A DNA stretch of 64,000 bases from Falsiroseomonas algicola. GTDB lineage: Bacteria > Pseudomonadota > Alphaproteobacteria > Acetobacterales > Acetobacteraceae. The stretch is taken from contig NZ_JAAIKB010000002.1 in the NCBI RefSeq assembly GCF_011040385.1, forward strand, positions 682,001 to 746,000, in the 5' to 3' direction. Below the pieces are notes generated by a model that saw only the letters and a list, made by a program, of their open reading frames with translations, ran no database searches and had not been told where the DNA came from. How positions within the stretch are numbered: the first letter of the stretch is position 1; the number at the start of each line of letters is the position of its first letter. Positions 10,134 to 45,871 of the stretch are shown here, piece by piece. The translations under genes and the position numbers were made by a program.

Positions 10134-11948
<1,815 letters not shown>

Positions 11949-34847: not shown

Positions 34848-35816
34848 ATGCAGCGCAGGCAGGCCCTGCTGATCGCCGGGGGGACGCTCCTCGTGCCCAC
34901 GGTCCTTCGCGCCCAGGAGGCCTGGCCCGTGCGCCAGGTGCGGATCATCATCCCCTTCGCCGCCGGCGGCCCGCAGGACGTGCCGGCGCGCATCATCGCG
35001 GACCGGCTGAGCCGGCGCCTGGGCGCGACCTTCATCGTGGAGAACCGGCCCGGCGTCGGCGGCGGCCTCGGCGCGCAGGCGGTGGCGCGGAGCGAGCCGG
35101 ATGGGGCGACGCTGCTCTTCATCTCCTCCTCCATCGCCATCCTGCCGACGCTGCAGACGCAGCTGAACTTCGACCCGCTGCGGGATCTCGCGCCGCTGAC
35201 GGTCGTGTGCGATGTGCCCGCGGGGCTGATGGTGCGCGCCGACAGCCGCTTCACGGACCTGCCTTCCCTGATCGCCGCGGCGCGCGCGCAGCCGGGGATC
35301 CTGACCTATGGCTCGGGCGGCGTCGGTTCGGCGAACCACCTGGCGGCGGCGCAGTTCGGCGCGCTGGCGAATATCGAGATCACGCATGTGCCGTATCGCG
35401 GCGTCAGCCAGGCGGTGAATGCGATCTACACCGGTGAGATCGACTTCGTCTTCGGCAGCACCGTCGAAGTGCTGGCGCATTACCGCCAGGGCCGCGCAAG
35501 GCTGCTCGGCATGACGATGCCGGCGCGCGTTCCCGCCGTGCCGGAAATCCCGGCCATCGCGGAATTCGTGCCGGGCTATGCGGCGCCCAACTGGTTCGCG
35601 ATGTTCGCCCCGAAGGGGATGCCCGAAGCGCTCATGGGGCGCCTCGTCGCGGAGCTGACGGCCATGCGCAGCGACGAGGATCTGCTCAACCGCCTCAACA
35701 GCGCCGCCGCCATCGTGCGCATGGATGGGCCGGCGGCACTGACTGCGCAGCTGACGGCCGAGATTCCCCGCTGGCGCGACGTCATCCAGCGTGCCGGCAT
35801 CCGCGGCGATTCCTGA
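34848..35816 (+). CDS. TTT periplasmic receptor (Bug family), copy 3
   Basis: The 322-residue protein has an AAGGAGG-like site right before the ATG and a signal peptide MQRRQALLIAGGTLLVPTVL cut after RAQ. Motifs are RIIIPFAAGGPQDVPARI, FIVENRPGVGGGLGA, HVPYRGVSQAVNAI and WFAMFAPKGMPEAL. It lies 13 bases ahead of the aldolase-family gene, and the pair forms a separate rightward unit, divergent from the TctAB operon. It would need the TctAB unit or another one encoded elsewhere. Confidence 0.92.
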   Translation: MQRRQALLIAGGTLLVPTVLRAQEAWPVRQVRIIIPFAAGGPQDVPARIIADRLSRRLGATFIVENRPGVGGGLGAQAVARSEPDGATLLFISSSIAILPTLQTQLNFDPLRDLAPLTVVCDVPAGLMVRADSRFTDLPSLIAAARAQPGILTYGSGGVGSANHLAAAQFGALANIEITHVPYRGVSQAVNAIYTGEIDFVFGSTVEVLAHYRQGRARLLGMTMPARVPAVPEIPAIAEFVPGYAAPNWFAMFAPKGMPEALMGRLVAELTAMRSDEDLLNRLNSAAAIVRMDGPAALTAQLTAEIPRWRDVIQRAGIRGDS

Positions 35817-37617: not shown

Positions 37618-38367
37618 TCACTCCGGCGATGACAGGCGGATCGCGTAGGCGAAGCGGGGGGAGGCGGCGTGGAGGTTGACCGTGGCTTCCAGCAGCAGCG
37701 CCTTCGGGCCGTAGAAGCGCCGCACGATGCGAAGCCCCGGCGTGCCGGCGCGCACGCCCAGCGCATGGGCGGCGGTCCGGGGCAGGGACAGGGCCGCGAT
37801 CTCCTGCCGCATGTCCACCACGGGAATCTTCCATTGCCGCTCGATCAGCCGGTAGATCGGCGTGCGGCCCACCTCCGGCCGTTCCGCGGCGGCGGCGAAG
37901 GGGGCGGGGATGAACATCTCCACCGCCGCGAGCGGCGTCGGGTCCGCGCCGGCGGCGGTGCGGATGCCGGTGATGCGCGCCATCTCCACCCCCGCGCCAT
38001 CGCCGAGCAACGCGCCGAGCGCGGGGTCCACCACCAGCCGGTCGCGCTTCGTGACGGTGAGGTGCGTCGGGCCGCCATAGCCCATGAGGTCCGCCAGCGA
38101 CCGCACCGCCATCTCATAGGTCGGGCGCGGGCGGCGGGCGGTGACGCGGGTGCCGACGCCATGGACGGGCTCCACCAGCCCCTGGTCGCGCAGGCGTCGG
38201 AGCGCTTCGCGCACCGTGGCGCGGCTGACGCCATGCGTCTCCGCCAGCTTGGCCTCGGTGGGCAGGTTCTCCCCGATCGCGGGCTGGCCGGCGGCGATGC
38301 CCGCGGCGAGTGTCTCCGCCAGCGCGGCGTAGCGAGGGCCGAGGCGGGTGGCGCTGCGGCGGGTCAC
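37618..38367 (-). CDS. GntR-family regulator with UTRA ligand domain
   Basis: The product is 249 residues from the GTG at 38367, which overlaps the hydrolase stop (GTGA). The winged HTH at about 12-75 reads LPTEAKLAETHGVSRATVRE and ALRRLRDQGLVEPVHGVGTR. The rest is a UTRA (HutC-type) sensor domain with MARITGIR, PTPLAAVEMFIPA and IVRRFYGPKALLLEATVNLH. It probably represses the two divergent promoter regions at 39106-39146 and 41131-41170, which share the palindrome TTGT(C/A)CGGACAA, and is relieved by the pathway's substrate. That link is inference from position and repeat. Confidence 0.9.
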   Translation of the reverse strand: MTRRSATRLGPRYAALAETLAAGIAAGQPAIGENLPTEAKLAETHGVSRATVREALRRLRDQGLVEPVHGVGTRVTARRPRPTYEMAVRSLADLMGYGGPTHLTVTKRDRLVVDPALGALLGDGAGVEMARITGIRTAAGADPTPLAAVEMFIPAPFAAAAERPEVGRTPIYRLIERQWKIPVVDMRQEIAALSLPRTAAHALGVRAGTPGLRIVRRFYGPKALLLEATVNLHAASPRFAYAIRLSSPE

Positions 38368-39083
38368 GCGGGGGCCGTCCCGTCGCGCAGCGTGCCGAGC
38401 CAGGCCAGGACCTCGGCCATCGGCAGGACATCGGCAAATTGCCGGTCCATGTCGAACAGCGCGATGGCATGGGAGATGGGGATGCGGTCGAACACGGCTT
38501 CCTGGGGCACGATGGCACGAAGGTTGTAGGAGGCAGCATCGAAGACCGTCGCCTGCACGCAGTTGCTGGTGGCGCCGCCGGTGACGATGACGGTGTCGAT
38601 GCCGCGGTCGATCAGGTAGCCCAGCAGGGGCGTGCCGTGGAAGGCGGAAGGCTTCTTCTTCACGAAGACCAGGTCCCGCGCATGGGGCTCCATGCCCTCT
38701 GCCAGTTCGGCACCGCGCGATCCGGCCAGGCACCAATGGTCGCTCGCCAGCAGGTCGCGCTTCCGGCCATAGACGCCGATGTCGCGGCCCTCCGGGTCCA
38801 GTTCGAAGCGGGTGAAGATGCAGGGCGCGCCGGCTGCCTGCGCGGCGCGGACCACCTGGGCGGCGGCGGCCAGTGATGCGCGGCCGATGGGCCCGCAGGA
38901 GGAAGGCCAGGCGGCGTCATCGCCTTCCGCCCCCACCATGTAGCGCTGCGCATCGATGACGAGGACCGCCGCGCGACGCCCGAAGCCCATGCGACGGCCG
39001 AAGCGCCCCTTGGACAGGACGGCGCGATCGGCCTCCGTCAGGAAGACATCCCAGGGCTTCGCGGGGGCGGTGTCACTCGGCAT
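38364..39083 (-). CDS. isochorismatase-fold cysteine hydrolase, N-carbamoylsarcosine-amidase-like
   Basis: The 239-residue protein has the Asp-Lys-Cys triad: D44 in VLVIDAQRYMVG, K144 in FVKKKPSAF and C175 in GGATSNCVQATVFD. The preceding GRFGRRMGFGRRAAVLVIDA resembles N-carbamoylsarcosine amidase, which hydrolyses a terminal carbamoyl or amide. It probably releases ammonia from a ring-opened amide. It shares an operon with the GntR gene (4-base overlap) and diverges from a Bug receptor across the 39135-39146 operator. Confidence 0.88.
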   Translation of the reverse strand: MPSDTAPAKPWDVFLTEADRAVLSKGRFGRRMGFGRRAAVLVIDAQRYMVGAEGDDAAWPSSCGPIGRASLAAAAQVVRAAQAAGAPCIFTRFELDPEGRDIGVYGRKRDLLASDHWCLAGSRGAELAEGMEPHARDLVFVKKKPSAFHGTPLLGYLIDRGIDTVIVTGGATSNCVQATVFDAASYNLRAIVPQEAVFDRIPISHAIALFDMDRQFADVLPMAEVLAWLGTLRDGTAPA

Positions 39084-39105
39084 GCGGTTCCTCCTGGCCG
39101 CGGCG

Positions 39106-39146
39106 TTGACCCCGATGGGGGGCGCCGACTAGCCTTGTCCGGACAA
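39106..39146 (+). promoter_or_regulatory. promoter with palindromic operator TTGTCCGGACAA (site 1)
   Basis: A -35-like TTGACC (39106-39111) is followed after 18 bases by TAGCCT (39130-39135). Overlapping and following it is the perfect 12-base palindrome TTGTCCGGACAA at 39135-39146. It lies 69 bases ahead of the Bug gene at 39215 and 52 bases ahead of the divergent hydrolase-GntR operon. The same layout recurs at 41131-41170. An operator over the start of transcription fits repression by the adjacent GntR protein. Confidence 0.62.
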
Positions 39147-39214
39147 CATGATAACCGAGGGCGCCGCGCATCGCGAGCGGCGCATCCCGTGAAACCGCCG
39201 AGGGAAACGAGACC

Positions 39215-40183
39215 ATGATGCGACGCAGGACCCTGCTGGTTGCCAGCAGCGTGGGACTTTCGATGCCGGCGCTGGCGCAGGGCAGCGACTGGCCGAACCG
39301 CCAGGTGCGGCTGGTCTCGCCCTTCCCGCCGGGCGGCGCCGCGGACCTCACGGCACGCATGGTGGCGGAGGAGCTGACGGCGGCGCTGCGCCAGACCGTC
39401 TTCGTGGAGAACCGCGTCGGCGCGGGCGGCGCGATCGGGACGGAATACGCAGCGCGTGCCACGCCGGATGGCTACACCTTCCTGCTGGCCAGCACCGGGC
39501 CCTTTGCCATCAATCCCGGCCTGTTCAGGCTGAACATCGACCCGTCCCGCGACCTGACGCCGGTGGCGATGGTGGCGATCGTGCCCTCCATCTTCATCGT
39601 GAACTCGGCGGTGCCGGCGCGGACGATGACGGAGTTGCTGGCCCTGGCGAAGGCGCAGCCCGGCGCGCTGTCCTATGCCAGCGGTGGCAATGGCACGGCA
39701 CAGCATCTGTTCGGCGAGTTGCTGAAGCAGATGGCCGGGATCGACATCCAGCACATCCCCTATCGCGGCGGCGGCCCGGCCATGACGGACACCATCGCGG
39801 GCCGCGTGCAGATCCTGTGCGACACGCTGCCCTTGGCGCTGCCGCATGTTCGGGAAGGCCGCGTGCGGGCGCTGGCGGTGACGACGGCCACGCGCAACCA
39901 GGCGCTGCCCGACATCCCGACCGTCGCGGAATCCGGCGTGCCGGGCTACGAGGCCACGGGCTGGTACGGCATCGCCGCGCCGACCGGCACGCCGGCTGCG
40001 ATGATCGAGCGCGTCAACAGCGAGATCAACGCGCTGCTCGCCCGCCCTGCCTTCCGCGAGAAGCTGTTGGCGCAGGGATCGGACCCCGCGCCGATGACGC
40101 CCGCCGCCTTCGGCGCGCTGATCGAACGTGACCGCGCGCGCTGGACCCGGGTTATCCGGGAGGCGAATATCCGACCGGACTGA
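39215..40183 (+). CDS. TTT periplasmic receptor (Bug family), copy 4
   Basis: The 322-residue protein has a signal peptide MMRRRTLLVASSVGLSMPAL cut after AQ and Bug motifs VRLVSPFPPGGAADLTARM, VFVENRVGAGGAIG, PDGYTFLLAST, HIPYRGGGPAMTDTIAGRVQ and WYGIAAPTGTPAAM. It is transcribed from the operator-bearing promoter at 39106-39146, as a single gene that converges on the deacetylase-family gene 4 bases later. The context points to an imported cyclic amide, its acid or a precursor as ligand. Confidence 0.93.
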   Translation: MMRRRTLLVASSVGLSMPALAQGSDWPNRQVRLVSPFPPGGAADLTARMVAEELTAALRQTVFVENRVGAGGAIGTEYAARATPDGYTFLLASTGPFAINPGLFRLNIDPSRDLTPVAMVAIVPSIFIVNSAVPARTMTELLALAKAQPGALSYASGGNGTAQHLFGELLKQMAGIDIQHIPYRGGGPAMTDTIAGRVQILCDTLPLALPHVREGRVRALAVTTATRNQALPDIPTVAESGVPGYEATGWYGIAAPTGTPAAMIERVNSEINALLARPAFREKLLAQGSDPAPMTPAAFGALIERDRARWTRVIREANIRPD

Positions 40184-40187
40184 ACCC

Positions 40188-41114
40188 TTATTCGTTCAGT
40201 CCCTTGCCGGGATAGGGATGCGTCTGGACCCAGTGGCGGGCGATGTCGATCCGCCGCGTGATCCAGACGCCCTCCTTCGCGGCCATGTGGTCCAGCAGGC
40301 GATGCAGGCCGGCGGCGCGGGCGGGCTGGCCGGTGATGCGGGAATGCAGGCCGATGGACATCATCACCGGCCGGCCCGCCGCGCCTTCGGCGTGGAGCAC
40401 GTCGAAATGGTCGCGGCAGAACTGGAACCAGTCATCGGAGGTGGTGGCGGCGCCGAAGTGGCGCGCGTCATTCGTCGTCATGGTGTAGGGCACGACGAGA
40501 TGCGGGTTGCCCTGCACCGTCACCCAATGCGGCAATTCGTCGCCGTAGTAGTCGCTGTCGTAGAGGAAGCCGCCGTGTTCGGCGACCAGGCGGCGCGTGT
40601 TCACGCTGGGTCCGTATCGGCAGTACCAGCCCTCCGGCGTCAGGCCCGTCGTCTTCCTGAAGCTCGCGACCGCGCGGGCGATCTGCGACCGCTCCTCGGC
40701 CTCATCCATCTCGTAGTGCTTCACCCAGCGCCAGCCATGGCTGCAGATATCCATGCCGCTGTCGCGGATCGCCTCCGCGATCGGCTGGTTGCGTTCCAGC
40801 GCCAGGGCGCAAGCGAAGAAGGTGAGGGGGAGCTTGCGCTCATCGAAGGCGCGGAGGATGCGCCAGAAGCCGGCGCGGCTGCCGTATTCGAACATGCTCT
40901 CCGCCGCCAGGTCGCGGCCGCGCGGGATCTGCGCGCGGGCGGCGGCCTCCGTCAGGTTGTTCTCGGTGAATCCCTCGCCGTCCTGGACGGAGGGTTCGGA
41001 GCCTTCCTCCACATTGAGGACGAAGTTGACCGCGATGCGCGCGCCGTTCGGCCAGCGCGGGTCGGGCGTGTGGCGGCCATAGCCGACGAAGTCGCGCTTC
41101 ACCTCGTAGTGCAT
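40188..41114 (-). CDS. polysaccharide-deacetylase-fold hydrolase, PuuE allantoinase/imidase-like
   Basis: The product is 308 residues from the ATG at 41114 with GGGGGCAGG just upstream; a longer frame crosses the divergent gene. The opening RDFVGYGRHTPDPRWPNGAR with VNFVLNVEEGSE is the PuuE-type allantoinase signature, replacing the NodB TFDDG motif. Metal or catalytic candidates are Glu37/38, His126 in DICSHGWRWV and the His in MSIGLHSRITG. PuuE opens the hydantoin ring of allantoin, and relatives hydrolyse cyclic imides. No urate or ureide genes are nearby, so a cyclic imide or amide is as likely. It diverges from the CoA-transferase operon across the second operator. Confidence 0.87.
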   Translation of the reverse strand: MHYEVKRDFVGYGRHTPDPRWPNGARIAVNFVLNVEEGSEPSVQDGEGFTENNLTEAAARAQIPRGRDLAAESMFEYGSRAGFWRILRAFDERKLPLTFFACALALERNQPIAEAIRDSGMDICSHGWRWVKHYEMDEAEERSQIARAVASFRKTTGLTPEGWYCRYGPSVNTRRLVAEHGGFLYDSDYYGDELPHWVTVQGNPHLVVPYTMTTNDARHFGAATTSDDWFQFCRDHFDVLHAEGAAGRPVMMSIGLHSRITGQPARAAGLHRLLDHMAAKEGVWITRRIDIARHWVQTHPYPGKGLNE

Positions 41115-41130
41115 CCTGCCCCCATGCTGA

Positions 41131-41170
41131 TTGACCCCCTGGAAGGGGACGCCTACCGTTGTACGGACAA
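41131..41170 (+). promoter_or_regulatory. promoter with operator TTGTACGGACAA (site 2)
   Basis: TTGACC at 41131-41136, a 17-base spacer and TACCGT at 41154-41159 precede TTGTACGGACAA at 41159-41170 (5-bp arms GTTGT/ACAAC). Eleven of 12 operator bases equal site 1 at 39135, and the TTGACC-to-TTGT distance is 28 versus 29 bases. The following bases CA are also shared. It drives the CoA-transferase operon whose first gene starts at 41194, and lies 17 bases from the divergent deacetylase start. Confidence 0.62.
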
Positions 41171-41193
41171 CAACAGTAACTGAAGGCCTGCTT

Positions 41194-42453
41194 GTGGGCG
41201 ATACCCCTTCGAAGCCGCGATCCAGCAAGCGGCGACGCGACTTCGACCCGGCGGCGAAGGGCGCGCTGGATGGGCTGCGCGTGGTGGACCTGGCGCGGCT
41301 CGTCGCGGGCAACATGCTCACCAAGGTGCTGGCCGATCATGGGGCGGAGGTGGTGAAGGTGGAGCCGCCGGCGGGTGACAGCCTGCGCGCCTGGAAGGTC
41401 GGCGGCGTGGAGACGGCGTGGAAGACCTGGTGCCGCAACAAGCGCAGCACCTGCATGGACCTCCGCAATGCCGAGGCCATCGAGGTGGTGAAGCGCCTGG
41501 CCGCCACGGCCTCCATCTTCGTCGAGAGCTTCAAGCCTGGCACGCTGGAGGCGATGGGCCTGGCGCCGGAGACGCTGCTCGCGATCAACCCCAAGCTTGT
41601 CATCGTGCGCGTCTCCGGCTGGGGGCAGACGGGGCCATACCGCCACAAGGGCGGGTTCGGGACGCTGGTGGAAGGCTATTCCGGCTTCGCCGCGATCAAT
41701 GGCTTCGAGGATCGGGAGCCCGTGCTGCCGCCCATGTTCATGGCGGATGCCTATGCGGGCCTCTACGGCGCCTCCGCCGCCATGATCGCGCTGCATCACG
41801 CGGAGCGGACGGGGCAGGGGCAGGTCATCGACCTGTCGCTGTTCGAGCCGATCTTCGCCGTGCTGGAGCCGCAGATGGCCAACTGGCGGATCATGGGGCG
41901 GAAGAAGCCGCGCACGGGCAGCCGCAGCACCAACACCGCGCCGCGCAATGCCTATCGCACCAGGGATGGCGGCTGGCTCAGCCTGTCCACCTCCACCCAG
42001 GCGGTCTTCGTGCGATTGATGCAGAGCATCGGCCGGCCGGAGCTGGTGGATGACCCGCGCTTCCGCACCAACCCCGATCGCCTGAAGCACATCGAGGCCA
42101 TCGACGGCGTGATCCGCGACGCCATCGCATTGATGACGCGCGAGGAAGCCCTGGCAAAGTTCGACCGCGACGGCGTCACCATCGGCCCCATCATGGATGT
42201 CGAGGATATCGATGCCGATGACTACGCCGCGGAGCGGGAGGCGCTGATCGAGGTGCCGGACGCCGAGATGCCGGATGGCTGGCTGCCCATGCATGGGGAG
42301 GTGCCGCGGCTTTCGGCCACGCCGGGCATCCTGCGCAACCCCGCGCCGCGGCTCGGCCAGGACAATGATGCGCTGCTGGTGCCCCTGCTGGGCGCAGCGG
42401 AAGTCGCGCGGCTGCGTGAAGCCGGCGTGATCCTTCACGGAGAGACTGTCTGA
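41194..42453 (+). CDS. family III (CaiB/BaiF) CoA transferase
   Basis: The product is 419 residues from the GTG at 41194, with GAAGG 8 bases upstream. A longer reading from a TTG at 41131 would start on the -35 box. Motifs are LDGLRVVDLARLVAGNMLTK, ADHGAEVVKVEPPAGD, SGWGQTGPYRHKGGF, the catalytic Asp185 in FMADAYAGLYGAS and GQGQVIDLSLFEP. It moves CoA to a carboxylate, most likely an acid freed by the amide hydrolases. It is first in the CoA-transferase, lyase, small subunit, amidase and receptor operon, and the next ATG overlaps its stop (TGATG). Confidence 0.9.
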   Translation: MGDTPSKPRSSKRRRDFDPAAKGALDGLRVVDLARLVAGNMLTKVLADHGAEVVKVEPPAGDSLRAWKVGGVETAWKTWCRNKRSTCMDLRNAEAIEVVKRLAATASIFVESFKPGTLEAMGLAPETLLAINPKLVIVRVSGWGQTGPYRHKGGFGTLVEGYSGFAAINGFEDREPVLPPMFMADAYAGLYGASAAMIALHHAERTGQGQVIDLSLFEPIFAVLEPQMANWRIMGRKKPRTGSRSTNTAPRNAYRTRDGGWLSLSTSTQAVFVRLMQSIGRPELVDDPRFRTNPDRLKHIEAIDGVIRDAIALMTREEALAKFDRDGVTIGPIMDVEDIDADDYAAEREALIEVPDAEMPDGWLPMHGEVPRLSATPGILRNPAPRLGQDNDALLVPLLGAAEVARLREAGVILHGETV

Positions 42454-43289
42454 TGACCCGCGTCTGGCGTTCCATGCTCTATGTCCCCGCCAATGTGCCG
42501 CGCTTCGTCGCCAAGGCGCCGGGCGCCGGCGCCGATGCGGTGGTGCTGGATGTCGAGGACAGCGTGCCGCATGACCGAAAGCTGGAGGCCCGCGCCGCGC
42601 TGAAGGACGCTGTGCCGATGGCGGCGTCCGGCGGCGCGGATGTGCTGGTCCGGATCAACCGCCCGATGAAGCTCGCCGTGCCGGACATGGAGGCGGCGGC
42701 GGAAGCCGGGGCGAAGGGCATCCTGCTGACCAAGTGCATGGGCCCCGACCATGTGCGGCTCGCTGCCGAGGTGCTGGCGGAAGCACGGCAGAAGATGGTC
42801 ATCGTGCCGATGATCGAGACGGCGGCGGCGCTGCCGCAGATGGAGGCGATCGCCCGCGCGTCGTCCATGGTGGCGGGGCTGCTGGTGGGGGCGGAGGATC
42901 TGGCGCTGGAATGCAATGCGGGCTCCGATGACGACCTCATCGTGCTGGCCAAGCGGCAGATGGTGCTGGCGGCGGTGGCGGCGGGTGTCGCGCCGCTCGG
43001 CACGCTCGGCACCGTCGCGGACTACCGCGATGCGGATCGCATCCGCGACCTGGTCGCGCGGTCGAAGCGATCCGGCTTCGTCGGCGCCACCTGCATCCAT
43101 CCGGCGCTGGTGCCGGTGCTGAATGAGGGGTTCTCGCCGTCCGAGAAGGAGATCGACCTGGCGCGCCGGCAACTGGCGGCGGCGGAGGAGGCGGCGCGGG
43201 ACGGGCGCGGGTCCTTCACCGTGGATGGCATGATGGTGGATGAGCCCATCCTGATCCGCGCGCGCCGCATCCTCGCGCTGGCATCATGA
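42453..43289 (+). CDS. HpcH/HpaI-type CoA-ester lyase (CitE-like)
   Basis: The 278-residue TIM-barrel protein has WRSMLYVPANVPRFVAKAPG, VVLDVEDSVPHDRKLEAR, VRINRP, the metal-site AGLLVGAEDLALE and GFVGATCIHPALVPVLNEGF. These are the citrate lyase beta / malyl-CoA lyase-like motifs. It would cleave, or hydrolyse, the acyl-CoA made by the preceding CoA transferase into acetyl-CoA or glyoxylate-type products. The pairing CoA transferase plus CitE-like lyase recurs in catabolism of C4-C5 dicarboxylates. ATGA overlap with the small next gene. Confidence 0.9.
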   Translation: MTRVWRSMLYVPANVPRFVAKAPGAGADAVVLDVEDSVPHDRKLEARAALKDAVPMAASGGADVLVRINRPMKLAVPDMEAAAEAGAKGILLTKCMGPDHVRLAAEVLAEARQKMVIVPMIETAAALPQMEAIARASSMVAGLLVGAEDLALECNAGSDDDLIVLAKRQMVLAAVAAGVAPLGTLGTVADYRDADRIRDLVARSKRSGFVGATCIHPALVPVLNEGFSPSEKEIDLARRQLAAAEEAARDGRGSFTVDGMMVDEPILIRARRILALAS

Positions 43290-43495: not shown

Positions 43496-44909
43496 GCTGT
43501 CCCTGGCACAGATCGCCGCCGCCATCCGCGCGCGGCAGGTCAGCTGCCTGGAGGTGACGCTCGCCGCCATCGAGCAGGCGGAGGTTGCGCAGCCCGTCAC
43601 CAACGCCTTCGTTGAGATCTTGGCCGATCGCGCGCTGGACCAGGCGCGGGCGCTGGACGCGGAGTTGCAGGCCGGGCGCATCCGCGGCCCGCTGCATGGC
43701 GTGCCGCTGGCGCACAAGGATTGCTTCGAGCGTGCGGGCGCCGCCATGGGCGTAGGGTCGAAGCTGCTGGCGGGCAGCGCGCCGGGCACGCGGGACGCGA
43801 CGGCGCTGGTGCGGCTGGAAGCGGCGGGCGCGGTCGATTTGGGGCGGCTGAACCTGAACGAGTTCGTGGCCGGGCCGACGGGGCAGAACCCTCATATCGG
43901 CGACTGCACGAATGCCTGGGATCCCGATCGCATCTCCGGCGGGTCGTCCTCCGGCTCCGGCTCTGCCGTGGCGTCCGGGGCGGTGTTCGGGGCGCTGGGG
44001 TCGGATACCGGGGGGTCCATCCGCCTGCCCGCGGCCATGCAGGGGCTGTTCGGGCTGAAGCCGACCTATGGCCGCGTCAGCCGCGCGGGCTGCTTCCCGC
44101 GGGCGCACAGCCTGGACTGCGTGGGTCCGATGACGCGCACGGCGGAGGATGCGGCGATCATGCTCGGCGCCCTGGCCGGCCCCGATCCGCGCGACCCGAC
44201 CGCGCTCGATGCGCCGGTGCCCGATTATGCCGCGCGGATCGCGACCTCGGCGGCGGGCTCGCGCCTTGTCACCCTGGCCGATCCCGGGCCCATGGACCCC
44301 GACATCGCGGCCCGGATCGAGGATCTGCTGCGCGTCGCGGCCGAGCTTCACGGCCCCGTCGCACGCCGCGCTTTCCCGCAATTCGCGGCCTGCGACGCGC
44401 TGGGCGACGTGCTGTCGAAGGTCGAGGCCTCGACGCTGCACGGCCACTGGATGGCGACGCAGGGCGGTGACTATTCGACCGCCGTCCATTCACGGACGGA
44501 ACCCGGCCTGCACATCCCGGCGCAGCGCTACCTGGAAGCGCTCGCGCTGCGGGCCCGGATGCTGGAGGATTTTCTCCAGACCGTCATGGACAGTGCGGAT
44601 GCGCTGATCTGCCCCGCCATCCCCATCCCGGTGCCGACGCGCATCGAGGCCGACATGGAGGGCGCGGGCCGCGTCTTTCCCGTGGTGGCGGCGCTGACCA
44701 GCTGGACGCGCCCCTTCTCCTATCTCGGCCTGCCCGTGCTGACCGTGCCGATCGGGCTCGACCGCAACGGCATGCCGGTGGCGGCGCAGCTGGTCGGGCG
44801 GCCCTTCGGGGAGGCACGGCTGCTGTCGCTCGGCGCGGGCCTAGCGGCCGCGCTGGGCTGGTCCTTCACGCCGGGGCTGCCGGCACGCATCGACGGAGAC
44901 GCCGCATGA
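43488..44909 (+). CDS. amidase-signature hydrolase (GatA/AtzE-like)
   Basis: The 473-residue protein has the Ser-cisSer-Lys triad: K77 in GVPLAHKDCF, S153 in ISGGSSSGSGSA and S177 in GSDTGGSIRLPAA. GLFGLKPTYGRVSRAGCFPR is the GatA-like substrate loop. It hydrolyses a terminal amide or carbamoyl group. With the small upstream partner it resembles the AtzE-AtzG pair that deaminates 1-carboxybiuret. It overlaps its partner and the following receptor gene (ATGA), so it belongs to the operon under operator site 2. Confidence 0.92.
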   Translation: MIELSLAQIAAAIRARQVSCLEVTLAAIEQAEVAQPVTNAFVEILADRALDQARALDAELQAGRIRGPLHGVPLAHKDCFERAGAAMGVGSKLLAGSAPGTRDATALVRLEAAGAVDLGRLNLNEFVAGPTGQNPHIGDCTNAWDPDRISGGSSSGSGSAVASGAVFGALGSDTGGSIRLPAAMQGLFGLKPTYGRVSRAGCFPRAHSLDCVGPMTRTAEDAAIMLGALAGPDPRDPTALDAPVPDYAARIATSAAGSRLVTLADPGPMDPDIAARIEDLLRVAAELHGPVARRAFPQFAACDALGDVLSKVEASTLHGHWMATQGGDYSTAVHSRTEPGLHIPAQRYLEALALRARMLEDFLQTVMDSADALICPAIPIPVPTRIEADMEGAGRVFPVVAALTSWTRPFSYLGLPVLTVPIGLDRNGMPVAAQLVGRPFGEARLLSLGAGLAAALGWSFTPGLPARIDGDAA

Positions 44910-45871
44910 TGGATCGCAGGACGTTGATGGCCGCCGCCGCGCTGGCCGCGCTGCCGGGGATCGCGCGGGCGCAGCCGGCTTGGCCGTCCCGCGCCGTGCG
45001 CATGGTCGTGCCCTTCCCGCCGGGCGGGAGCAACGATGTGCTGGGCCGCGCGCTCTGCGAAAGGCTCGGGGCTCAGCTCTCGCAGCCCTTCGTGGTGGAG
45101 AACCGCGGGGGAGCCGGCGGGGCGATCGGTGCCGACCAGGTCGCGAAATCGGCGCCGGATGGCTACACGCTGCTTTTCATGTCGTCCTCGCTGACGACCA
45201 ACGCCGCCGTGCAGCGCCTGCCCTACGACCCCGTCGCCGACTTCACGCCGATCGCCCAGGCGGCGGTGGCGCCGATGATCGTGACGGTCGGCAAGGACAG
45301 CCCGGCCCGCACCATGGCGGATCTGGTGCGGATCGCCCGCGAACGGCCCGGGATGCTGCGCTTCGGCGGCGCCGGCCCCGGCGATACCTCCTTCTTCGCG
45401 ACGGAGCTGCTGAAGATGGCGGCCAATCTGGACATGGAGGCCGTCGCCTATCGCGGGATCACGGAGGCGCAGACCGATGCCGCCGCCGGGCGCATCGACC
45501 TGGTGGTCACGACCCTCGCCTCCGCCCGCGGGTTGATCGAGGCCGGGCAGCTTCGCCTCCTCGCCACCGCTTCCGCCGAGCGCGACCCCCGCATGGCGGA
45601 TGTGCCCACCGTCCGCGAGGCGACGGGGATCGACTACGTCACCGGCGTCTGGTGGGGCGTTTTCGCGCCGGCCCGGATGCCGCCCGCCCTGACCGCTGCC
45701 ATCAACGCCGCGGTCAACCGGGCGATGGCGGAGCCGCAATACCAGCGGGTGCTGGAAGCCGGCGGCGCCTCCATGGCCGCGCTGGCGCCGGAGGCCTTCG
45801 CCGCCCGTGTCCGGTCCGAGGTCGCGCGCTGGACGGATGTGGCGAAGCGGGCGGGCGTCGCCCTGAACTGA
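44906..45871 (+). CDS. TTT periplasmic receptor (Bug family), copy 5
   Basis: The 321-residue protein has a signal peptide MMDRRTLMAAAALAALPGIA cut after RAQ, and Bug motifs VRMVVPFPPGGSNDVLGRAL, FVVENRGGAGGAIGADQVA, PDGYTLLFMSS, AVAYRGITEAQTDAAAGRID and WWGVFAPARMPPAL. The lip reads AYRG instead of PYRG. It is the last gene of the CoA-transferase operon, which ties it to the amide/imide pathway. It is the second receptor under the shared operator, after the one at 39215. Confidence 0.92.
   Translation: MMDRRTLMAAAALAALPGIARAQPAWPSRAVRMVVPFPPGGSNDVLGRALCERLGAQLSQPFVVENRGGAGGAIGADQVAKSAPDGYTLLFMSSSLTTNAAVQRLPYDPVADFTPIAQAAVAPMIVTVGKDSPARTMADLVRIARERPGMLRFGGAGPGDTSFFATELLKMAANLDMEAVAYRGITEAQTDAAAGRIDLVVTTLASARGLIEAGQLRLLATASAERDPRMADVPTVREATGIDYVTGVWWGVFAPARMPPALTAAINAAVNRAMAEPQYQRVLEAGGASMAALAPEAFAARVRSEVARWTDVAKRAGVALN

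Follow-up and report, generated by a model that had tools for sequence, protein, structure and literature searches.

We identified two near-identical candidate promoter-operator elements in a 64,000-nucleotide stretch of the Falsiroseomonas algicola genome (hereafter, the window), at a locus which codes for a GntR/UTRA regulator and several enzymes. Judged from sequence, it is quite likely that each palindrome is the operator of a dimeric GntR/UTRA repressor and that the pair is controlled by the local regulator, possibly with cross-talk from its paralogue elsewhere in the genome. The system appears to be of a known kind, a GntR/HutC repressor with a palindromic operator, that is, of the ordinary repressor-operator type. 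Below, genomes, contigs of the host assembly and loci are designated by G, C and L numbers, respectively.

Two candidate promoter-operator elements in the window

The genes of the locus are as follows.

37618-38367, minus strand: GntR/UTRA (HutC-subfamily) regulator gene (Pfam GntR 2.2e-17, UTRA 2.3e-12), GTG start, second gene of a leftward operon
38364-39083, minus strand: isochorismatase-family hydrolase (Pfam PF00857, 9.4e-32), first gene of this operon, overlapping the GntR gene by 4 bases
39215-40183, plus strand: TctC-type solute-binding protein (Pfam PF03401, 6.5e-73)
40188-41114, minus strand: polysaccharide-deacetylase-family hydrolase, PuuE-like (Pfam PF01522; NCBIfam TIGR03212 at 370.3 bits, below the cut-off of 424.6)
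41194-42453, plus strand: CoA-transferase family III (Pfam PF02515, 7.8e-110), GTG start preceded by GAAGG
42453-43289, plus strand: HpcH/CitE-type lyase family (Pfam PF03328, 1.9e-27; RipC and CitE models match below their cut-offs), probably in the CoA-transferase operon

Operator 1 is located between the isochorismatase-GntR operon on the left and the TctC gene on the right, and operator 2 between the deacetylase-family and CoA-transferase genes. Thus, the gene map bears out the statement of the initial annotation that both sites lie between divergent genes; their placement beside a GntR/UTRA gene is correct for site 1, which is upstream of the regulator operon, but not for site 2, which is 2.8 kb away from the GntR gene. 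A pathway name for the locus was considered and rejected: the RipC-, RipB- and PuuE-like matches were all below cut-off, and a CoA-dependent acid pathway therefore stays only a guess. Three TctC-type binding-protein genes (34848-35816, 39215-40183 and 44906-45871) lie in the window within 11 kb.

The two elements consist of the following features.

39106-39111, plus strand: -35 element TTGACC of the TctC gene promoter, unchanged in 5/5 aligned genomes including G014
39130-39135, plus strand: -10 element TAGCCT, unchanged in 5/5 aligned genomes, matching TATAAT in 3/6 bases
39135-39146: candidate operator 1, TTGTCCGGACAA, a perfect palindrome, kept in G004, G006 and G013 and gone from the G014 gap
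39147-39184, minus strand: near-invariant flank beside operator 1, alike in the four genomes with the local GntR gene and unlike G014
41131-41136, plus strand: -35 element TTGACC of the CoA-transferase gene promoter, unchanged in 7/7 aligned genomes, including three without the local GntR gene and without the operator
41154-41159, plus strand: -10 element TACCGT, whose last base is shared with operator 2; the three operator-less genomes have TAGCTT here
41159-41170: candidate operator 2, TTGTACGGACAA, kept in G004, G006 and G013, absent in G014, G007 and G009

Element 1 (39106-39146, 41 bases) has the form TTGACC-N18-TAGCC-TTGTCCGGACAA and element 2 (41131-41170, 40 bases) the form TTGACC-N17-TACCG-TTGTACGGACAA, which agrees with the one-base difference in spacing noticed earlier; with TAGCCT (39130-39135) and TACCGT (41154-41159) taken as -10 hexamers, the spacers measure 18 and 17. 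The operators differ in 1 of 12 bases, again as noticed. An exact search of the window for TTGTNCGGACAA found both near-identical copies, at 39135-39146 (matched on both strands, being a perfect palindrome) and 41159-41170, and confirmed that there is no third; 100 dinucleotide shuffles gave none. Similarly, TTGACC followed by the operator after 16-25 bases occurred exactly twice in the window (39106-39146 and 41131-41170) and never in shuffles. When up to two mismatches were allowed, the sole additional match was at 11928-11939, and the count was at chance level (5 strand hits versus a mean of 4.64).

A generic sigma-70 scan over 38900-41400 found no promoter, and the -10 elements, originally described as TA-rich, share just 3/6 bases with TATAAT. 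Although this consensus scan was negative, the hexamers TTGACC-N17/18-TACCGT/TAGCCT were kept even in genomes that lack the operator. At both sites the first operator base is also the last base (T) of the -10 hexamer, so a transcription start about 7 bases further on would fall inside the palindrome. The earlier suggestion that the operators cover the expected start gains support, which comes from the comparison among genomes. The conserved promoter elements of both sites point rightward, and the case for leftward promoters is weaker: a TATCAT on the minus strand (39148-39153) adjoins operator 1 and may serve as a leftward -10, which makes the flank of operator 1 a candidate leftward promoter.

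Additional sites in the genome and a paralogous regulator

The 6.56 Mb assembly contained 11 places matching TTGTNCGGACAA (two on C22, which holds the window, five on C88, and one each on C33, C44, C66 and C90), compared to 0.58 expected from independent bases at the base composition of the window; the reversed pattern had one strand hit. Among the places matching TTGTNNNNACAA, 11/13 had an NCGG/CCGN center (binomial 2e-11). The reversed bare outer pattern of TTGTNNNNACAA occurred at 8 places versus 13 in the forward direction, and strong enrichment is therefore confined to the center. A chance origin of the sites was rejected on the basis of the shuffles (none), the 11 places against 0.58 expected, and the binomial value of 2e-11. 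The genome had eight UTRA matches over cut-off, two of which adjoin these sites: the regulator of the window and the following paralogue.

C88:143167-143877: GntR/UTRA paralogue (C88 paralogue), flanked by a site on either side, with another three within 17 kb

Identity between this paralogue and the window regulator is 39-40%. Sites on C88 adjoin acyl-CoA dehydrogenase, enoyl-CoA hydratase, TRAP-transporter and MaoC-type genes, the C44 site adjoins an amidohydrolase gene and a peptide-binding-protein gene, the C66 site TRAP components, and the C90 site genes for TctB and an FMN oxidoreductase. The C33 site (G000 C33:111645-111656; L006 7646) has the perfectly palindromic form TTGTCCGGACAA and is flanked by LptC and RNase D-like genes; because it recurred in 0/10 relatives, it is probably a chance occurrence or a species-specific gain. 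The concern that the motif might be found at unrelated genes applies only in part: most other sites lie by transporter and acyl-CoA/amidohydrolase-type genes, the C33 site being an exception. Of the small regulon with one repressor site that the initial annotation had envisaged, the shared repressor-type operator is supported by comparison among genomes, but a regulon of two sites had to be rejected because the genome has 11 places, with a second GntR/UTRA paralogue among five of them.

The sites differed in their flanks. In the C88 cluster, A was present at -8 in 76/104 and T at -7 in 59/104 flanks, whereas the window pair had C/G at -7 in 16/16; sites near relatives of the window regulator had C/G at -7 in 18/20 flanks, and 35 scattered sites of the genus had mixed flanks. 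These preferences are confounded with the -10 register, which may explain part of the difference. Another UTRA regulator of the host genome (L015 2169) has a palindrome, ATTATGTCTAGACATAAT, directly upstream; its center is TA, usual for HutC-type operators and unlike that of the window sites.

Conservation within Falsiroseomonas and promoters without operators

In the 15 genomes of the genus, all 11 with a C88-type regulator (66-100% identity) carried 4-12 places, and all four without it carried none (Fisher p = 0.0007, not corrected for relatedness). This table links the motif to the C88-type gene, and the window-type gene was found only in genomes that also have the C88-type. The five C88 positions were kept in 47/50 cases (10 relatives; G005, G009 and G012 each lacked one), with flanking proteins as low as ~62% identity. 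The C44 site recurred in three relatives, and the C66 and C90 sites in four each; in all, 8/9 places outside the window had counterparts next to orthologous genes in three or more relatives.

The window pair recurred in 3/3 other genomes of the genus with the window-type GntR gene (G004, G006 and G013), so that both sites are kept in the orthologous intergenic regions to which the initial annotation had pointed. In the four genomes with this gene, TTGACCC and the -10/operator block are invariant, and the -35 to -10 spacers diverge and take indels; the four regulators are 95-97% identical, and such close genomes are pseudo-replicates. G004, G006 and G013 have a further conserved promoter-operator (L095 2967, L100 3053 and L119 3046), in which TTGACT is followed by TTAGCG and, immediately after it, TTGTCCGAACAA; counted from the first base of the -35, the operator is 29 bases away. 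The gene behind it shares 44% identity with the C44 peptide-binding protein, and a genome-wide search of the host found no exact place of this type.

Deacetylase orthologues (64-73% identity) were present in eight further genomes of the genus, and all eight loci were compared. None had TTGTCCGGACAA within two mismatches. G014 has the gene order of the window (isochorismatase, 82% identity; TctC, 80%; deacetylase, 73%; CoA-transferase, 82%; and lyase) with the GntR gene missing, and no GntR gene was found in the surrounding 17 kb. The CoA-transferase gene of G007 and G009 (81-82%) is divergent beside the deacetylase gene, and in the remaining five loci the deacetylase gene is the sole close match to the window locus. 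No GntR was detected among the scanned neighbor genes (8 of G014, 6 of G009 and 4 of G007); the other neighbors at these three loci were matched by BLAST or lay outside the scan.

G014 lacks operator 1 and the local GntR gene, yet the TTGACC and TAGCCT corresponding to 39106 and 39130 are present (TTGACC...TAGCCT in gap 1), and its gap 2 keeps TTGACC...TAGCTT. The latter is also kept in gap 2 of G007 and G009, at the same position as the window element. Thus, the promoter element persists where the operator is missing, whereas presence of the operator goes with that of the local regulator gene. The proposal of the initial annotation that the local GntR is the likely owner of the sites therefore fits the pattern among the genomes compared. 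Both G007 and G009 carry the C88-type regulator without operator 2, which argues against the C88 paralogue as the cause of operator 2. A ParE gene tree of 14/15 genomes of the genus (with three GyrB rows as a remote outgroup; G005, for which the search gave just a paralogue, was omitted) had support too weak to decide between gain and loss of the operator. Joint addition of a repressor gene and two matching operators to two pre-existing promoters, with reuse of the operator code of the paralogue, is a tentative scenario which we consider slightly more apt to be wrong than right.

Operator-like palindromes near related regulators in other genera

In a 59-genome set, 30 genomes had a match; outside the genus, exact counts were generally not above the reversed control, with G020 as a clear exception. 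Relatives of the window regulator with 42-49% identity in four other genera had operator-like palindromes in nearby gaps between divergent genes: TTGTTCGTACAA and TTGTACGTACAA in Humitalea, CTGTCCGTACAG in Acidisphaera, TTGTACGGACAT and TTGTGCGAACAA in Plastoroseomonas, and CTGTACGGACAA in the fourth genus. These are intergenic palindromes that were selected; L133 had two more matches within two mismatches. Two loci of other GntR relatives, L132 and L138, had no match within two mismatches.

Among the best 80 of 548 loci around regulator relatives, exact TTGTNCGNACAA was found 31 times in 23 loci and was absent in 57/80, compared to 0-5 hits for each of 14 control palindromes. Five of the 23 loci belong to the same genus and four more to close genera. 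In 11 of the 18 loci with an exact site outside the genus, TTGTNCGNACAA was located 16-196 bases upstream of the matched regulator sequence, a distance that refers to the start of the match rather than to a mapped start codon; metagenome-assembled genomes account for several of these loci. When one mismatch was allowed, the motif had 72 hits in 47 of the best 80 loci, one GC-rich control palindrome 91 hits in 48 loci, and the other controls 3-28 hits; because of the former control, the one-mismatch motif no longer stands out from it.

In G020, an Acidisphaera genome, the C88-type regulator was matched at 39% or less; this genome contained ten TTGTNCGGACAA-type places (L124-L127 and L129-L131), several of which adjoin peptide-binding-protein and amidase-like genes. 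In addition, TTGTGCGGACAA was found in a nearly identical stretch with GGGCAA repeats in two genera (L085 ~2993 in G003 and L135 ~4972 in G019), which looks like a mobile or repeated element.

Regulator family and DNA recognition

The window regulator has an N-terminal GntR helix-turn-helix (PF00392, 62.9 bits, cut-off 27) and a C-terminal UTRA domain (PF07702, 47.3 bits, cut-off 23.8); the model of HutC proper, the histidine utilisation repressor, matched below its cut-off (TIGR02018, 74.8 bits against 220). In operators of the HutC subfamily, GT and AC are mostly 4 bases apart (PMC4494728, section 11), and if the window sites are operators of this regulator, TTGT-CCGG-ACAA and TTGT-ACGG-ACAA have this spacing. 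The published consensus NyGTMTAKACNy has a TA center, typical rather than required, with exceptions listed (PMC4494728). Both window sites and 11/13 genome places of TTGTNNNNACAA depart from it with a CG center.

Among solved structures, NagR/YvoA of Bacillus subtilis and DasR of Streptomyces came next to 2ra5 in sequence match; they belong to the same subfamily and share the GntR helix-turn-helix and effector domain with the window regulator. Compared to operators of this type, with their published TA center (PMC4494728), the window sites have CG in the center and T instead of the outer G. In NagR structures, Arg38 reads the outer and Arg48 the inner of the consecutive guanines of the half-site (PMC4333415), and in the HutC subfamily Arg at position 28 of the helix-turn-helix accompanies G/C at the outer position (PMC4494728, section 11). 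In a 9-row alignment of the window protein and relatives, Ala is present in most rows at the position aligned to Arg38, and R49, aligned to Arg48, is invariant in 9/9 rows, the register to NagR being an inferred one. Ala in place of the former Arg and retention of the latter would fit TTGT rather than TGGT.

AraR of Bacillus subtilis has a GntR-type helix-turn-helix, and its DNA-binding domain (4egy) was among the structure matches of the window regulator. In contrast to the UTRA domain of the window and C88 proteins, the effector domain of AraR is LacI-type. The AraR operator ORX1, ATACATACGTACAAAT, is also CG-centered, and the window sites resemble it in this respect (PMC4218819). A literature search for the operator letters, with most subscription journals outside its scope, found no relevant paper.

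Proposed mechanism and ownership of the window pair

We suggest that a dimeric GntR/UTRA repressor of the HutC subfamily would bind each candidate operator over the expected transcription start and, once bound, obstruct RNA polymerase at both the TctC promoter and the CoA-transferase-lyase promoter. As operator 1 is upstream of the isochorismatase-gntR operon, autoregulation of the repressor is probable. Binding of a small molecule to the UTRA domain would release the repressor, the ligand probably being one of the substrates or intermediates of the catabolic locus. The C88 paralogue is surrounded by the same core, which would serve a greater number of transport and acyl-CoA genes, possibly with cross-talk onto the window pair, and the code TTGTNCGNACAA is found in the neighborhoods of other related regulators as well.

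The local GntR (37618-38367) is the probable owner of the window pair, because both sites recur in the three other genomes of the genus with this gene. Control in trans by the C88 paralogue, with the local GntR acting elsewhere or only jointly, would explain why the presence of the motif tracks the C88-type gene exactly across the 15 genomes and why the C88 sites share the 12-base core with the window pair. However, operators at this locus were found only where the local GntR is present, and the flanks differ (A at -8 and T at -7 in the C88 cluster versus C/G at -7 in the window pair). As the orthologous CoA-transferase/deacetylase gap of G007 and G009 holds no operator despite the C88-type regulator in these genomes, we rank the C88 paralogue as sole owner lower and regard it as rather improbable.

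Somewhat unlikely, too, is a merged regulon in which both paralogues bind all sites equally, as two repressors with different effectors. Its attraction lies in the identical 12-base core of both site sets, in relatives of both kinds adjoining TTGTNCGNACAA, and in a precedent: GntR1 and GntR2 of Corynebacterium glutamicum are reported to be functionally redundant GntR-type regulators which co-regulate genes (PMC2230225). Unlike that pair, the present paralogues are only ~40% identical, lie in separate catabolic loci, and differ in the flanks of their sites; moreover, their recognition helices differ (SRATVRE against SRHTIRE), and the shared gap has no operator in the two genomes with the C88-type regulator only. 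Very improbable is the reading that the palindromes belong to some unrelated regulator or form a repeat with no regulatory role. In its favor stands the C33 place, which recurs in 0/10 relatives and may be chance, but the sites adjoin conserved promoter elements, are kept while their surroundings diverge, and co-occur with GntR genes inside and outside the genus. Control by the local GntR is thus the reading we prefer.

Significance

These data predict a regulon of about ten sites with promoters, and point to a CG-centered operator of various GntR/UTRA regulators inside and outside this bacterial group. Insulation versus cross-talk can be studied well in a pair of paralogues that share one core operator, and whether a repressor circuit was gained or lost can be tested directly on the bare promoters of G014, G007 and G009. 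If repressor and operators were indeed added jointly, the locus would represent a traceable case of a new circuit placed over old promoters by means of an existing code.
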